From NCBI GenBank assembly GCA_017307505.1, contig JAFKEE010000040.1, forward strand, positions 1 to 64,000: a stretch of 64,000 bases of DNA, written 5' to 3'. This document shows positions 48,416 to 55,332 of this stretch, piece after piece. The notes under the pieces are model-generated. The model did not search any database, was not told the origin of the DNA, and was given only the letters and a program-made list of their open reading frames with translations. The DNA is from Acidobacteriota bacterium (GTDB lineage Bacteria > Acidobacteriota > Terriglobia > Bryobacterales > Bryobacteraceae). A program made the translations under genes and the position numbers. Positions within the stretch are counted from its first letter, which is position 1; each line of letters opens with the position of its first letter.

Positions 48416-50272
48416 TTAGCGCTCGGCCCTCACCAGGATCTCATCGGGCCCGGCCAGGTCTTTGGCCGATGGGGTGACGATCGTCTTGGGGCCGATGAAT
48501 ATCTTCTTCTTCTTCGCGATTGCTTCGCGAACGTCCGCTTCACAAACGAAGGGAACGATTTCAATCTTGGGCGTGGGGATCTGGGCCGGAGCCGGAGGAA
48601 CCGCGGGTGCGGCCGGGGCGGTCTCGGCGGGCTTGATGCTGCACCCACAGGAGGGCGCGGGGGCGGGCGCTACTGCGGCTGAAGCCTGCGATTGTTTTGC
48701 AGCCAGAAAACGATCGACGACGCCGGCAACGGCGCCGTGCAGCGGCGGTTTTGGAGCGGGAGGAGCCACCTGGGTTTGCGCGGGCAGAGCTGCCGCAACT
48801 GCAGCGGAAAGCGTCGCTCCGCTGATGTTCACGCCCTTCTGGGCAAGGTAACGCTCCACAGCCGCCACCAGTGCGGCCTTATCAATGTTGAGGCCAGAGG
48901 ATTCCTCCGGCGCGGGCTCGGGATCGCGGACGGCCCATGCGATGCGCTTGATGTTGATGAGATGCTGGGGTCCGACGTTATCGCTGGTGATGTTGCCGGC
49001 GATGGCTCCGCAGCCAAGCGTCATGGAAGGTTGCACATTCGTCGTGATGCCGACGGAGCCCTGCGGCGAAGCCGTATTCACAAGCACACGGAAAGCGGGC
49101 ATGCGCAGGCCGAAGCGGCGGACCTTGGCTTCGTCGCCGGCATGGATCACGCAGGTGTGTCCGAGTCCACCAAACTTGAGAATGGCTTCACAGGCATCCA
49201 GCCCGGCTTCGAAGGAATCGACAAAAAGCAGAGCAAGGACGGGCGAGAGCTTTTCAGCAGAGAGCGGATGATCACGTCCTACGCCTTGGATCTCAGCCAC
49301 CAGGATACTGGCATCGGCCGGGACGCTGATGCCTGCCAGTTGGGCGATGGTCTGAGGAGACTTGCCTACGCAGTCGGCCCGCACAGTGGTGCCGCTGCTG
49401 AAGAGGGTACGCTCCACGGCGGCGCGTTCCTGATCATTCAGGATGTATGCTTTTCGCGCTTTGAACTCGGCGAGCATCCGATCCCGCAACCCGCGTTCGG
49501 CCACGACAGTCTGCTCGCTGGAGCACACCGTGCCGAAGTCAAAACTCTTTCCACTGACGATGCGGGCGACAGCCTGGGCGAGGTTGGCAGAGGTATCCAG
49601 GAGGACAGGCACATTGCCGGGTCCGACACCGAAGGCAGGCTTGCCGGAAGAATACGCGGCGCGCACCATGCCAGCTCCACCCGTGGCGAGGATGACACCG
49701 GTCCTGGCATGCTTCATCAGGGCCTGTGTGCCTTCCAGTGTGGAATTAGTGGCGCATTGAATAATGTCCGGTGGAGCGCCGGCTTCGGCTGCGGCTTCGG
49801 CCAGCAGGGCGGCGGCGGCGCAGGTGCACTCCTTCGCACGAGGGTGCGGACTGAGCACGATGGCGTTGCCGGCTTTGAGGGCAATGATCGTTTTGAAGAA
49901 AACGGTGGAGGTGGGATTCGTGGTGGGGCAGATCGCGGCGACGACACCCTGGGGGACACCCACTTCGGTGATCTTCTGTTCAGGAATCTCCCTCAGTACG
50001 CCAACGGTCTTCATGCCGCGAATCGCGCGTAACAGAGTGTCGGAGCACAGCATGTTCTTCGCATACTTGTCCTCGACATTGCCCATGCCCGTCTCGCGTA
50101 CTGCGAGTTCGGCCAGACGGCGGGCGTGTGCGCGCCCTTTGGCGGCCACGGCTTCCACTACAGCGTCGATCTGTTCCTGAGTGAAGTTCCTATAGGTCTG
50201 CCAGGCGGCGTAAGCCTTATCAACTTTTTCCCGGACCTCCTGGACCGAGACCAGGTCCGCATCATGCAGCAT
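48416..50272 (-). CDS. BMC-associated CoA-acylating aldehyde dehydrogenase with multi-part C-terminal extension
   Basis: A 618-aa protein. Residues 1-450 are a PduP/EutE-type aldehyde dehydrogenase that would convert an aldehyde plus CoA and NAD+ to acyl-CoA. The nucleophile is C250 in [10 protein letters not shown], with GVGPGNVP upstream. The extension holds an amphipathic helix ([20 protein letters not shown], 461-480), a second one ([16 protein letters not shown], 511-526), a Pro/Ala linker with CGC, and a 45-residue end ([20 protein letters not shown]) like the TPSA(R/K)DL segment of EutT/EutQ-type proteins. The helices look like encapsulation peptides. GGGGG precedes the ATG at 50272; a GTG at 50287 is possible. 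It lies 79 bp downstream of the BMC-H shell gene. Confidence 0.85.
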
Positions 50273-50351
50273 GCCATCCCCCCACACAACCAGTCATCCG
50301 TGCAGGAACACGCAGCTGAGCGGTTCCTGTCTATATAAGGAGGCGGCCGGC

Positions 50352-50642: not shown

Positions 50643-50819
50643 TGAACCTCCCGACGAGCACGGCTGAGTGAACGTTCCAGAAACTCCCACGGTATCACAA
50701 CCGGGGTGTGCGCGATACCGGTCGAGAGGCGGCGAAAGAGGACTGCTGGTACCCTCAAATGCGGCCTGCCACAACGCGTGAAAAATTGCAAGACCAATAA
50801 AATCAATAACATAGAGTGC

Positions 50820-50847
50820 TGGACGAGCAGGCTCCCTATGGTATAAT
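50820..50847 (+). promoter_or_regulatory. extended -10 promoter of the leader RNA/lysozyme-like gene
   Basis: TGGACG (50820-50825), 16-bp spacer, consensus TATAAT (50842-50847) preceded by TGG, forming an extended -10. The expected transcription start is about 50854, leaving a leader of about 298 nt before the ATG at 51152. Confidence 0.65.
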
Positions 50848-50864
50848 GGTCCTCATGTTTAGGA

Positions 50865-51098
50865 CACAAGGGAGCCGGAATCGGCACACCACTCCGCGGT
50901 AGCCCGTGAAGCTGCAACGCGCGGCGTCCTACCTCGATTCGAAGGACCCCGCCTGTTGCCTTCGGCCCGCGTGAGTCGTCCAGAACGCTCCGGACCAATC
51001 GGCCGGAGCAGACCCCCGGCGGAACAGCCGGAGCAATGACCTGGCCCGGAGGCCAGAGACAATTCGCCGGATTTGCGACCCGGCTCAACTTTATTGTG
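50865..51098 (+). ncRNA. structured 5' leader RNA, riboswitch-like, family not identified
   Basis: No protein is encoded here, yet paired elements are dense. A long-range closing stem joins CACAA (50865-50869) to TTGTG (51094-51098) and GAGCCGG (50872-50878) to CCGGCTC (51080-51086). Inside lie CCGCG/CGCGG with GTAGC/GCTGC (50894-50924), GTCCT/AGGAC (50926-50947), GCTCCGG/CCGGAGC (50987-51009), CCGGC/GCCGG (51016-51031) and CTGGCC-CGGA-GGCCAG (51041-51056). A further hairpin (51112-51132) abuts the Shine-Dalgarno at 51134-51139. The downstream gene is cell-wall-related, as is common for c-di-AMP (ydaO) riboswitches, but I cannot find that family's conserved core. Confidence 0.5.
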
Positions 51099-51151
51099 AA
51101 CGTAAGTCGTTCGGAACTGGTGACCAGAACCGGAAGGAGAGTTTGTTTTTG

Positions 51152-51646
51152 ATGACAAAGGCGCTATCTAGAGGCTTGGTGGTGATTGCGGGTCTTTTGG
51201 CCGGTCAGACGGCCGCGGATCCCGACCCCCGTCCAGCCGATATGGCCGTCAGCAAAACCGACCCACGTCTGACCCGAGTCAAGCAGTTCTTCCAGCAACG
51301 GGATTGCCCAGCCCAGGTGTATGCCGCTGATTTCATTACAGCCGCAGACCAGCACGACCTGGACTGGCGGCTGCTGCCGAGTTTATCCTTCATCGAATCG
51401 GGCGGCGGCAAAGTGGCGTACAACAACAACATGTTCGGCTGGGACAACTGCAAGTTGAAGTTCAGATCGACGAGGGAAGGGATCTACCGGGTGGCCTCCA
51501 AACTCGGCAAATCCCGGATGTACAGAAAGAAAAATGTGGATCAGGTTCTGAAACTGTACAATCCGCGGCGGGAATACACAATTGCGGTGAAAGCAGTGAT
51601 GAGCCAACTGGGCCCTGCCGAGTTGGCCTCGAACGGGGCCTTTTGA
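51152..51646 (+). CDS. small exported lysozyme/glucosaminidase-like protein
   Basis: A 164-aa protein with signal peptide (RGLVVIAGLLAGQTAA). The mature part resembles a lysozyme-like/transglycosylase fold: LLPSLSFIESGGGKVAYNNN with the potential catalytic Glu (FIESGG), then NMFGWDNCKLKF and LYNPRREYTIAVKAVM. It would act on peptidoglycan. AAGGAG (51134-51139) lies 12 bp before this ATG; a TTG at 51143 is an alternative. It is preceded by the structured leader and followed by a terminator hairpin. Confidence 0.78.
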   Translation: MTKALSRGLVVIAGLLAGQTAADPDPRPADMAVSKTDPRLTRVKQFFQQRDCPAQVYAADFITAADQHDLDWRLLPSLSFIESGGGKVAYNNNMFGWDNCKLKFRSTREGIYRVASKLGKSRMYRKKNVDQVLKLYNPRREYTIAVKAVMSQLGPAELASNGAF

Positions 51647-51740: not shown

Positions 51741-51887
51741 TTATTCCAACAGCCGGACGCCCATATAAAGGCCTCCGAACAACAACACGGAGACGACTCC
51801 GACCAACAACCATTTGAGATATCTCTCTCTTGGCGTGGTTTCCAAATCTGCATCGTGTTTCATCTGCTCGTCGAGGGACTCGAACAT
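51741..51887 (-). CDS. 48-aa single-helix membrane protein
   Basis: Found by direct translation. It starts MFESLDEQMKHDADLETTPR, with an acidic N-terminus, then ERYLKW and one membrane helix (LLVGVVSVLLFGGLYMGVRL), ending LE-stop. GGGAGG lies 8 bp upstream of the ATG. Small acidic-N-terminus/one-helix proteins of this kind are common in Acidobacteriota; no function is known. A promoter candidate lies about 60 bp upstream. Confidence 0.72.
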   Translation of the reverse strand: MFESLDEQMKHDADLETTPRERYLKWLLVGVVSVLLFGGLYMGVRLLE

Positions 51888-52171: not shown

Positions 52172-53488
52172 TTAGGCCAGCCCCATGCGCTCCAGTTTGC
52201 GGTAAAGTGTCTTCCGCTCAATCCCCAGGATTCTGGCGGCCCGGCTCTTGTTTCCGCCCGTGGCGGCGAGAACCTTGCGAATCTGTTCCATCTCCGTATC
52301 AGCCAGCGATTCGCCTGCCTGCTCCTTGGGGCTTGAGGTGCGAATGGCATCGTCGACGGCATCTTCCGTGATGCGGCCGCCGGGCGAGAGAATGACGAGG
52401 CGCTCCATCATGTGCTGCAACTGGCGAATATTGCCAGGCCAGGTGTAATCGGCCAGCGCCTTCATGCCACTTTCTGTAATCTTTGTCTCCAACGCATAGC
52501 GTTCGTTGTACCGCTTGAGGAACGCGCCCACCAGCAGCGGTACGTCTCCGTGCCGCTCACGCAGTGGCGGCACCCCGATCCGCACAACGTCGAGGCGGTA
52601 CCAGAGGTCCTCCCGGAATTTCCCGTCTTCCACCATCTTGCGCAGGTTGCGATTGGTCGCGGCGAGGATGCGCACATCCACTTTGCGCGGCCGGGACGAG
52701 CCGAGGGGCCGGATCTCTTTCTCCTGCAAAAATCGGAGCAATTTCAACTGAAAGTTGAGATCAATTTCGCCAATTTCATCAAGGAATACGGTGCCGCCGT
52801 TGGCTGCCTCGAAGACGCCGGTGCGGTCCCGGTCAGCGCCCGTATAGGCGCCTTTCATGGCTCCGAAGAGTTCGCTTTCCACCAGGGACGGCGCCAGCGA
52901 GGCACAGTCGACCGGCAGGAAAGGCATGGCCGAACGCCTTGAATTCGCATGCAAAAGATGGGCAATCAGTTCCTTGCCCGTGCCGGTCTCGCCCTCGATG
53001 AGCACCAGCGCGTCGGTCGGCGCCACCCTGGAGATGGTCTTGTAGATCTCGATGAGCTTGGCGGAACTGCCGATCATCTCGGTCGCCAGCGGCTCTTCCG
53101 GATCGATGTCCTCGTCCTCTTCCTCGTCGGCCGCGCCCTCGGCGCGTTTCACGATCGAGAGCAGGTCGTCCAGCTCAAAGGGCTTTGCGAGGTAATCGAA
53201 GGCTCCGCCCCGCGTCGCGGCCATCACGGTCTCCATGCTGCCGCGCGCCGACATGAGAATAACGGCACAACTGTCGTTGGCCAGCCGCGCCGCGCGCAGA
53301 ATGTCGATGCCCGTTCGTTCATCGATATAGATATCGGAGATGACGATCGGATAACTCGCGTGGTTCAGGCGCAGCAAGGCTTCTCGCGTGGAAGAAACTG
53401 CTTCCACGACGTAGCCTTCCAATTCGAGAAATGTGGAGATAGTCGATCGAACCGAGGGATCGTCTTCCACCAACAGCACCGGGGGCAT
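52172..53488 (-). CDS. sigma-54-dependent NtrC-type response regulator
   Basis: A 438-aa regulator. The receiver domain (1-120) has acidic residues VEDD (8-10) and phospho-acceptor D52 (VISDIYID). The AAA+ domain (about 140-370) has Walker A EGETGTGKELIA, a GAYTGA version of the sigma-54-contact GAFTGA loop, and Walker B GGTVFLDEIGE. The C-terminal Fis-type helix-turn-helix is at 410-435 (GGNKSRAARILGIERKTLYR). An acidic run (EEEDEDIDPEE) joins receiver and AAA+. It is co-transcribed with the CHASE2 histidine kinase upstream (8-bp gap), its probable partner. Target genes are unknown. Confidence 0.93.
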   Translation of the reverse strand: MPPVLLVEDDPSVRSTISTFLELEGYVVEAVSSTREALLRLNHASYPIVISDIYIDERTGIDILRAARLANDSCAVILMSARGSMETVMAATRGGAFDYLAKPFELDDLLSIVKRAEGAADEEEDEDIDPEEPLATEMIGSSAKLIEIYKTISRVAPTDALVLIEGETGTGKELIAHLLHANSRRSAMPFLPVDCASLAPSLVESELFGAMKGAYTGADRDRTGVFEAANGGTVFLDEIGEIDLNFQLKLLRFLQEKEIRPLGSSRPRKVDVRILAATNRNLRKMVEDGKFREDLWYRLDVVRIGVPPLRERHGDVPLLVGAFLKRYNERYALETKITESGMKALADYTWPGNIRQLQHMMERLVILSPGGRITEDAVDDAIRTSSPKEQAGESLADTEMEQIRKVLAATGGNKSRAARILGIERKTLYRKLERMGLA

Positions 53489-53496
53489 ACCAACTC

Positions 53497-55332
53497 TCAG
53501 TGTAGCGTGGCCGGCAGCACAACCGTAAACGTCGAACCCGCTCCAGGGGCGCTCTCCACTTCAACATGCCCGCCATGGAGCACGACGATCTGCTGCACAA
53601 TAGACAGCCCGATCCCGGTTCCAATTTCGCCGGACTGTTCCGCCTTGCGAGTACGGTAGAACTTGCGGAAGAGGTTTTTGACCTCGCCCGCATCCATGCC
53701 CATTCCATGGTCGCGGACCGAAATTGTGACACCTGCCTGCGTCTGGATTGCCGAAACAAGAACGTCCGTTTCCGGCGCGGAGTATTTCACGGCATTTGTT
53801 ATGAGATTGTAGATCGCATACTCAAGCAGTTCCCGGTCGGCATTGACGACAAGTTCGTCGGGGACTTCCGAAGTGATACGAATCGACTTTCGCTCGGCGA
53901 GAGGCAAGGCCCGCTGATAACAGGTATCCACCACTTCCTGTAACGCAAAGGTCGCCCGGCGCAACTCGAGTTGTCCTGCCTCGAGTTTTTCCACATCCAG
54001 GAATGTCGTGATCATTTTCGCCAGCCGTTTGGACTCGCTGTTGATCATCTGCCCCAATTCCTTGCGTTTGGGCTCGGGCAGGTTGTAGCGGGTCATCAGC
54101 TCGCTGGAGCCCTGAATCGCGGTCAGCGGAGTGCGCATCTCGTGGGCGACGAAGTGAAACGCCTGCTGGTAGCGCGCAGTGGTGGCCTCGCTCACCGTCA
54201 GGCGCCGCCGGACATAGAAGTACTGGAAACCGGCGCAGCCCAGGACACCCAGCCAGGAAGCCGCTACCGGAGCGAAAGCGTCCAGGATGAGATTCTGCGT
54301 GAAAAACACGTAAGGCGCCAGGTGAGCCACCAGCAGGAGGCTGGCTGCGGAGAGCAGGGCGGGCCACCCGCGCAGAAAAGTGAACACCACAGCTGCCAGG
54401 GCCACAATCAGTCCGGCCAGCAAGAGCGGGACCAGAGGCCCCAATTCATACAGCAGGTCGCCGGCGGCCATGGTCTCAAACGCCTGCAAGTGGATCTCGA
54501 CGCCGGGCATCGGCAAGCCGCCCGAGAGTGGGGTGAACAGGCGGTCTTTCACCGCGGACTGGGCGGTGACGCCCAGAAAGACAACCCTGCCGCGCAGGCG
54601 TTCGAGGCCGCGGCCGGCAATCACTTCATCCAGCGAGATCCTCTGAATTGCTGCCGCGTCACGGTAGCGAACCCACAGCGGACGGCCCGCGTCCCAGCGG
54701 GATTGAATCGCCAAACCGCCGACGGTGACGTCCGTTGGCGAGCTCTCGATGACTCCGGCATGCCGGAAAAGCCGCAGAGCCTCCAGGGACAAGGCCCAGC
54801 GCCGCACCCGCCCACAGACACGCTCAAGCGTGACGCGGCGGTTGATCTCATCGTTGGGCCCGGCCAGAGCGTGCACATGCCCCAGGGCCGCCCCCGGACG
54901 GAAGCGCTCTACCGGATCCTGCCAGCCGGAGCAACCGCCGGCGTCCGGCTCCATCTCGCAGCCCAGCACCAGGCCTTGGGTCTTGGCAAAGGCCACTTGC
55001 AGGGCCGCGTCTTCCGCTTCGTTGCCGGGATCCGTCAGGGTCAGATCGACGGCGACGACGCGTGGTGGAGCCTGTGCCATCTGTTCGAGTGCCTGGGTCA
55101 GCGCCCTCCGCATTCCGCCGATGCCGCCATGACGCTGCATGGTGCGTTCATCCAGCGCCAGCAGCACAGCGCCGGCATCCTGGCGGACCGTCGGCCGCAC
55201 GCGGAAGATGAAGTCATAGACGTTGTTATCAAACTGCGCCGCCAGAGCGGTCCAGGAGACCAGCAGCGACACCACGGCGGCTGCCGCGGCCAGCAGGGCA
55301 TACGCCAGCCCAGGCGCCATGCGGCGGATCAT
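53497..55332 (-). CDS. CHASE2-domain sensor histidine kinase
   Basis: A 611-aa kinase. An N-terminal helix (8-31) is followed by an extracytoplasmic CHASE2 domain (about 35-290; LLALDERTM, VVAVDLTLTDPG, VVFLGVTAQS). Three helices follow (300-370). The dimerisation domain carries the phospho-acceptor H397 in FHFVAHEMRTPL. The ATP-binding domain has NLITNAVKYS, RDHGMGMDAGEV and GTGIGLSIVQQI (N, G1, G2 boxes). CHASE2 sensors respond to unknown extracellular cues. It is the first gene of the pair with the NtrC-type regulator. Confidence 0.92.
   Translation of the reverse strand: MIRRMAPGLAYALLAAAAAVVSLLVSWTALAAQFDNNVYDFIFRVRPTVRQDAGAVLLALDERTMQRHGGIGGMRRALTQALEQMAQAPPRVVAVDLTLTDPGNEAEDAALQVAFAKTQGLVLGCEMEPDAGGCSGWQDPVERFRPGAALGHVHALAGPNDEINRRVTLERVCGRVRRWALSLEALRLFRHAGVIESSPTDVTVGGLAIQSRWDAGRPLWVRYRDAAAIQRISLDEVIAGRGLERLRGRVVFLGVTAQSAVKDRLFTPLSGGLPMPGVEIHLQAFETMAAGDLLYELGPLVPLLLAGLIVALAAVVFTFLRGWPALLSAASLLLVAHLAPYVFFTQNLILDAFAPVAASWLGVLGCAGFQYFYVRRRLTVSEATTARYQQAFHFVAHEMRTPLTAIQGSSELMTRYNLPEPKRKELGQMINSESKRLAKMITTFLDVEKLEAGQLELRRATFALQEVVDTCYQRALPLAERKSIRITSEVPDELVVNADRELLEYAIYNLITNAVKYSAPETDVLVSAIQTQAGVTISVRDHGMGMDAGEVKNLFRKFYRTRKAEQSGEIGTGIGLSIVQQIVVLHGGHVEVESAPGAGSTFTVVLPATLH

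Follow-up and report, generated by a model that had tools for sequence, protein, structure and literature searches.

What does a 5' leader of about 297 nt do in front of a gene for a putative cell wall hydrolase? The question is raised by a locus in a 64,000-nt stretch of DNA (here called the window) from an acidobacterial genome of 9.39 Mb, where a preliminary description based on the letters alone had taken the leader for a large riboswitch. The elements on which the argument turns, all on the forward strand, are as follows.

50820..50847, +, promoter: -35-like TGGACG (50820-50825), a 16-nt spacer, and the extended -10 element TGGTATAAT (50839-50847)
50855..50902, +, predicted leaderless upstream ORF (uORF): ATG 7 nt past TATAAT, reading MFRTQGSRNRHTTPR-stop (TAG), 15 codons
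50855..51151, +, 5' leader of ~297 nt, from the predicted transcript start to the enzyme start codon (ATG 51152)
50865..51098, +, long-range stem of the preliminary description (50865-50869 with 51094-51098; 50872-50878 with 51080-51086), present here and not conserved
50921..50952, +, local hairpin formed by GCGGCGTCC...GGACCCCGC, including a C/C mismatch, from the RNAalifold structure; comparable arms recognized by eye in the majority of loci L004 to L012
51110..51135, +, last hairpin, overlapping the first two Shine-Dalgarno bases; CTGGTGACCAG / CTGGTGGCTAG / CTGGTGACTAG still pair
51134..51139, +, Shine-Dalgarno sequence AAGGAG, 12 nt ahead of ATG 51152 and kept in both leader-sharing relatives
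51152..51646, +, GH73-like peptidoglycan hydrolase of 164 amino acids, assigned from fold and Pfam, with a signal-peptide-like start by eye

The gene behind the leader had been described as lysozyme-like, and its predicted structure agrees. The AlphaFold model (mean pLDDT, 83) was matched best by Foldseek to the glucosaminidase domain of a C. difficile endolysin (8yxk_A; probability, 1.00; E value, 6.7e-3), with no match at an E value of ≤0.001. The Pfam Glucosaminidase family matched 22 of 24 orthologs at an E value of ≤10 (best, 5e-5); the window protein itself scored 15.8 bits against PF01832, below the curated cutoff of 30.2. Residue E82 is invariant in the 24 aligned proteins. The model thus points to a GH73/lysozyme-like fold, with E82 as the candidate catalytic glutamate. 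The enzyme was found in 33 of 61 relatives, all of one family. Within that family, 173 of 200 genomes have it; in the class it was present in 28 of 151 genomes, all 28 of which belong to the same family.

The neighboring genes lie on the reverse strand. Divergent from the leader are genes for a bacterial microcompartment shell protein (PF00936; 50352-50645) and an aldehyde dehydrogenase-family protein (48416-50287), and by eye the apparent start of the same shell gene is also upstream in L008 and L017. Convergent with the hydrolase gene is one for a 48-amino-acid membrane-type protein (MFESLDEQMKHD...VRLLE; 51741-51887) that has no Pfam match; similar proteins were seen by eye beside the hydrolase in L005, L007, L013, L014, L016, L018, L020, L021, and L027. 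Beyond it are genes for a sigma-54 response regulator (52172-53488) and a CHASE2 histidine kinase (53497-55332), the end of the response regulator gene also lying near the hydrolase in L007 and L021 by eye.

The near-consensus extended -10 promoter and the long leader proposed for this locus were both borne out. TATAAT (50842-50847), with TG in front, is part of a promoter that matches the consensus at 10 of 12 positions and is the only sigma-70-like promoter in 50660-51160, where shuffled sequences average 0.2. The hairpin said to stand just ahead of the Shine-Dalgarno site is there as well (51110-51135), and the leader folds with an energy of -122.7 kcal/mol versus -106.1 ± 5.4 kcal/mol in shuffles (z = -3.09; 1 of 200 shuffles folded as well). 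The idea of a structured 5' leader, so far undescribed and possibly acting on hydrolase translation, is supported.

The stable fold and the hairpin at the Shine-Dalgarno site, together with the cell wall gene downstream, also speak for a large ligand-binding riboswitch (for c-di-AMP or another ligand) as the controlling element, and it is here that the preliminary description loses its footing. At the gathering score, Rfam matched only tRNA in the whole window and no family on the leader; at an E value of ≤10, the leader gave four chance-level matches, and ydaO (RF00379), which had been put forward as the first family to check, was not among them. By DNA similarity the leader is recognizable in 3 of 61 genomes, the window's own genome counted, and the leaders of the two relatives are 86% and 81% identical to it. 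The long-range closing stem is present in the window and is not kept in these relatives: its outer part, CACAA/TTGTG, has become CGCTA/CCGAA and CGCAA/CAGAA and is broken in both, and its inner part, GAGCCGG/CCGGCTC, is short of the last pair in one relative (GAGCCGT/CCGGCTC) and of two pairs in the second (GAGCCGA/CCGGCAC). The RNAalifold fold of the three leader-sharing sequences does not choose this stem. It contains 94 predicted pairs, of which 2 are changed on both sides, far too few in three sequences for showing a conserved fold. The pairs of the hairpin at 50921-50952 are mostly invariant and hence weak covariation evidence, and the outer pairs of the last hairpin (51110-51135) are partly broken among the three sequences. 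Further, the leaders of other orthologs vary in length and sequence, whereas the promoter and the 5' AUG recur. Since no Rfam family, no wider recurrence of the leader DNA, and no conserved closing stem stand behind the riboswitch reading, it is not supported, nor is c-di-AMP as the ligand, and we consider a riboswitch highly improbable; a riboswitch or other known RNA was dropped as a candidate with Rfam empty-handed at both thresholds.

It is at the extreme 5' end that the leader has something in common with its counterparts. The preliminary description had called the leader noncoding, and for its first 48 nt this does not hold: an ORF can be read from ATG to TAG at 50855-50902, and throughout the family an ATG is met repeatedly in the corresponding position. 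The transcript is predicted to begin with the A of ATG 50855, give or take a base or two, so that the RNA would open with a leaderless ORF; the hydrolase gene (ATG 51152) follows downstream on the same mRNA as a separate, Shine-Dalgarno-led gene.

The pattern was first suggested by 30 loci, and the loci added later extend that set and overlap it in species and records. The pooled 189 loci were reduced to 113 nonredundant ones at 80% identity over the 130 nt upstream, a cut by which alone kinship is handled in the counts, and the -10 element was picked by its match to the consensus, not by the presence of an ATG. An extended -10 element was found upstream of 101 of the 113 orthologs, and at 77 of these 101 sites an ATG begins 5 to 9 nt past it (6, 26, 19, 25, and 1 cases at offsets of 5, 6, 7, 8, and 9 nt, respectively); the remaining 35 offsets within 0 to 39 nt hold 21 ATGs altogether. 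With a background of 0.6% per offset, the binomial P value for 77 of 101 is ~7e-81, shared ancestry ignored. The 36 orthologs without the signature comprise 12 without an extended -10 element and 24 with the element and no ATG at 5 to 9 nt. The spacing leads us to predict that the upstream AUG lies at the transcript start at these sites. A loose Shine-Dalgarno-like motif (4 to 8 nt) is present in 56 of 58 short-uORF leaders. What recurs in the family, as read from the DNA, is a promoter, then a predicted 5'-terminal start codon, and then an early stop.

In the frame of this ATG, no more than five sense codons precede the stop in 58 of 77 cases, compared with 5 and 14 of 77 in the other two frames (Fisher P value of ~1e-21 against these two frames pooled); 4 of the 19 cases without such a stop have the form of a leaderless enzyme gene. 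Most uORFs in the relatives have about 1 to 6 codons, and the commonest form has 4: 37 of the 77 are exactly M-x-x-x-stop (e.g., MSVP, MDAP, and MTPW), 21 of these 37 end in Pro-stop (CCG in 10, CCT in 7, and CCC in 4), and five uORFs are AUG-stop (examples are L016, L019, L023, and L061). Longer forms occur in the genus to which the window belongs, where the uORF has 15 codons in the window and its two nearest relatives and 46 codons in L012 of the same genus; several other relatives in the genus stop after five (MRRTQ and MSMTH). The peptide sequence varies between clades, and the position and shortness of the ORF recur. In codons 2 to 4 of the 37 four-codon mini-ORFs, single-base codon differences number 151, 64, and 329 at positions 1, 2, and 3, versus 130, 113, and 149 in the adjoining next 9 nt of the same sequences, the counts coming from sequence pairs that are not independent; the synonymous share in codons 2 to 4 is 0.18, versus 0.05 to 0.08 in control frames and stretches. 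By these measures the 5' ORF looks like a short coding frame, and we predict that it is translated.

L089/L267 (one record) and L268 have a TTG followed immediately by a stop where the 5' AUG sits elsewhere, as though a start-stop had been retained there in a version that has a weaker start codon. Two other roles for the leader were rejected. Against transcription attenuation, the scan of 50660-51160 gave no terminator-like site, and an inspection of the short mini-ORFs by eye found no repeated amino acid codon of the kind sought in an attenuator leader peptide. A protein-coding leader was set aside because the frame of the enzyme is broken upstream by stops in L004 and L006.

An ATG at a fixed distance from the -10 element might also be a by-product of transcription, reflecting a preferred initial sequence or a promoter requirement, and be no start codon at all. 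The fixed distance itself is what such a reading explains; the genomic distribution is what it does not. In the window's own genome, TGNTATAAT occurs 11 times and is followed by an ATG 6 to 8 nt on at the hydrolase site only, none of the other 10 sites having an ATG at 5 to 9 nt; in 23 genomes of the family, an ATG at 6 to 8 nt follows 32 of 230 TGNTATAAT sites, of which 14 belong to the hydrolase gene and most others to long ORFs. We fetched 20 other TGNTATAATN{6,8}ATG sites (18 within the family and two in a second family of the same order; a few are homologous pairs). ORFs of 76 codons or more begin at 16 of these sites and ORFs of 22 to 41 codons at four, and none opens a mini-ORF of ≤10 codons. 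Such spacing therefore normally marks leaderless genes in these bacteria. (A published prediction for three Acidobacteria genomes averages 13.3% leaderless genes [PMC3160421].) Whether consensus extended -10 promoters are followed by mini-ORFs as a general habit was considered as well, and no such habit was seen in the genomes surveyed. The strict form TATAATN{6,8}ATGN9TAA occurs nine times in 8 of 101 family genomes, six times before the hydrolase gene, and a short look at the other three sites found no convincing gene behind the mini-ORF. Judged on consensus promoters, the 5' mini-ORF thus appears nearly specific to the hydrolase gene. The early in-frame stop and the codon-position bias, moreover, have no transcriptional reason, and we find a pure by-product of transcription scarcely credible.

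The leaderless form of the enzyme gene raises another alternative, namely, that the gene was ancestrally leaderless, the 5' AUG being a leftover start and the stop having arisen when a leader was inserted. Our enzyme tree (FastTree; 122 rows including near-copies, many long branches, and a midpoint root that is not established) comprises 72 rows whose mini-ORF has at most nine codons, 15 with a longer uORF, 6 with a leaderless gene, 3 with TTG-stop (two distinct), 16 with an extended -10 element and nothing counted behind it, and 10 without an extended -10 element; thinned at 80% identity over the 130 nt upstream, it has 89 rows (51 mini-ORF, 10 longer, 6 leaderless, 2 TTG-stop, 12 none, and 8 without an extended -10 element). 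The six leaderless rows, all from genus g62, have the same promoter spacing, with the AUG in frame with the enzyme. They form one small group next to L031, whose ten-codon uORF, MRFGYSRCPS, resembles the N termini of the leaderless proteins (MRLGYGRL... and MHVGYSCL...). This resemblance suggests that the mini-ORF and the gene were merged into one reading frame in the g62 group or were split, and by either route the leaderless form makes the 5' AUG look like a usable start codon. The six rows and their neighbor are also what the idea of a leftover start has in its favor. However, the leaderless rows are confined to that one small group, mini-ORFs occur on both sides of the midpoint root (on a FastTree tree whose root is not established), and one would not expect a neutral remnant to retain a short frame with a third-position bias. 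A remnant of this kind is, in our view, very unlikely.

The reading that we favor, and consider probable, is that of a leaderless tiny ORF placed ahead of a Shine-Dalgarno-led hydrolase gene, with a 70S ribosome at the 5' end predicted to modulate the hydrolase. The transcript would start at, or 1 to 2 bases from, the A of ATG 50855; a 70S ribosome would initiate directly on the 5'-terminal AUG, make a peptide of usually 1 to 6 residues (15 in the window genome), and terminate; and it is the ribosome being present at the 5' end, and not the peptide as a product, that would modulate the hydrolase. Where the bases around and after the stop are predicted to pair with the hydrolase Shine-Dalgarno sequence, the initiating or terminating ribosome would open the site, and in other lineages the mini-ORF may serve as a ribosome landing pad or as 5'-end protection. 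The promoter-to-AUG spacing, the early stop, the codon-position bias, and the near restriction to the hydrolase gene are properties of the DNA itself; the actual transcript start, the translation, and the way and direction in which the hydrolase is affected are inferred. For the window genome, the mechanism is suggested by analogy: the pairing and hairpin tests described below took short-uORF leaders, and the window leader, with a 15-codon uORF, was too long and was left out.

In partition functions computed for 56 short-uORF leaders, the mean probability of pairing between the post-stop segment and the Shine-Dalgarno sequence was 0.176, versus 0.068 when that segment alone was shuffled, and it exceeded 0.4 in 12 of the 56 leaders, compared with 3.8 expected (0 of 5,000 draws as high), a signal driven by a minority of leaders. 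Pairing was strongest in L020, L086, and L155 (MW-stop, MR-stop, and ML-stop; 0.91 to 0.95), in which post-stop CCUCU lies opposite AGAGG and a ribosome on the mini-ORF would break the pairing. A simple duplex test of the post-stop segment against the Shine-Dalgarno sequence was not above chance (4 of 56 leaders at a P value of ≤0.05; mean P value, 0.40).

A more specific version, which we hold to be possible and rather doubtful, is that of a dedicated leaderless start-stop switch, in which a 70S ribosome initiates and slowly terminates on a 5' ORF of 1 to 6 codons and thereby gates the hydrolase. A hairpin that begins about 8 to 15 nt after the stop, in one group of leaders that was tested and in a second judged by eye, would stand roughly where toeprint practice places the front of a terminating ribosome, and in other leaders the bases after the stop would mask the Shine-Dalgarno site of the hydrolase. 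A consensus of 22 MxxP-type leaders (MAFFT and RNAalifold) had zero predicted pairs. Stems were also scored leader by leader in 24 leaders grouped by peptide, not by tree (21 Pro-stop leaders plus MSVS, MSVS, and MTSS), and the best stem starts 8 to 15 nt after the mini-ORF stop in 15 of the 24, versus 24% in shuffles. Stems beating shuffles at the 0.05 level were found in 10 of the 24 grouped leaders, in 7 of 34 other leaders, and in 7 of 54 cases when a window farther downstream served as the control. The difference shrinks when folding energy is the measure (9 of 24, 10 of 34, and 11 of 54, respectively). Given the counts in the other leaders and the control window and this weaker energy contrast, a post-stop hairpin is at best confined to the 24-leader group. 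By eye only, a similar hairpin lies about 8 to 11 nt after the stop in MW-stop, MR-stop, ML-stop, and UUG-stop leaders. As for slow termination, PMC7246954 cites the work of others in which termination in E. coli can be stalled by a proline next to the stop codon and release is inefficient in vitro, and in its own assay a C-terminal proline changed no expression; slow termination at the Pro-stop mini-ORFs is for that reason proposed here conditionally.

The 5' AUG may be a mere landing or protection site, to which decoding, the peptide, and structural switching are irrelevant: a 70S ribosome sitting there would protect the RNA against decay or pass ribosomes to the downstream site. We deem this explanation unlikely. 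That the peptide differs between clades while the place and shortness of the ORF recur would fit such a role, and effects of this kind appear in published reporter tests on E. coli ptrB (PMC4965119) and the axe-txe two-codon minigene (PMC8708949). However, a binding site alone needs no early stop, and the codon-position bias and the Pro-stop in 21 of 37 four-codon mini-ORFs suggest that decoding and termination matter.

Several known systems resemble the proposed arrangement of leaderless mini-ORF and hydrolase gene in part. Leaderless short ORFs of mycobacteria reportedly act as cysteine-responsive attenuators (Canestrari et al. 2020), and they would share with the present case a leaderless uORF at the 5' end that controls downstream genes. 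They are said to be polycysteine ORFs read by codon content, whereas the mini-ORFs described here show no repeated amino acid codon by eye and some have no inner codon at all.

The closest known counterparts are E. coli mRNAs with a 5'-uAUG or 5'-terminal uORF (Beck, Fleming, and Janssen 2016; PMC4965119), in which a 5'-terminal AUG likewise stands on an mRNA that also carries a Shine-Dalgarno-led gene. In that report, 70S ribosomes bind the 5' AUG; in ptrB the downstream gene requires this AUG, and part of the effect returns with a start-stop version; mutation of the 5' AUG can lower (ptrB), raise, or leave unchanged the expression of the downstream gene. The E. coli set differs in comprising thirteen unrelated genes with uORFs of 5 to 26 residues in 12 table rows, and the word "conserved" does not appear in the text, whereas here one orthologous gene bears the feature family-wide, the frames being strongly skewed toward very short ones and, in a group, ending in Pro-stop. 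In the axe-txe two-codon minigene, a minimal leader ORF likewise raises downstream translation in cis, but this is a toxin-antitoxin operon, and the minigene is not described as 5'-terminal or leaderless in the abstract (PMC8708949). The AUGUAA of plant NIP5;1 shares an AUG-stop in a 5' UTR that stalls ribosomes with a regulatory outcome and differs in being eukaryotic and boron dependent (PMC11915504). Among the literature matches listed, in which subscription papers are mostly uncovered, only these four systems bore on a conserved leaderless mini-ORF. What appears to be new is the predicted leaderless mini-ORF that recurs across a family at the 5' end of a Shine-Dalgarno-led hydrolase mRNA.

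Leaderless starts in these bacteria extend beyond the hydrolase. L235, L237 to L242, L245 to L247, and L249 to L254 have an extended -10 element with an ATG 6 to 8 nt on that opens a long ORF, apparently leaderless, and by eye the genes are antitoxin-, ArsR-, XRE-, and ThiC-like; the set from L235 to L254 is handy for the study of leaderless translation in the family and order. In L236 and L244, similar genes, which we take to be PhoH-like, follow uORFs that have 22 and 37 codons and are predicted to be leaderless, and this layout is possibly that of a second gene with a leaderless uORF.

In E. coli, the 5'-terminal AUGs of leadered mRNAs have been studied gene by gene, and their effects were varied or absent. 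A mini-ORF that recurs on one gene with a codon-position bias would be evolutionary evidence for selection on 5' ORFs, and the family offers dozens of natural variants for testing control by a ribosome at the 5' end, including AUG-stop, UUG-stop, four-codon Pro-stop, and fused leaderless gene forms. If a dedicated start-stop switch is indeed at work, a wall-cutting enzyme would be gated by the state of a 70S ribosome without a ligand or a peptide signal. These features suggest a link of ribosome state with peptidoglycan cutting in Acidobacteriota.
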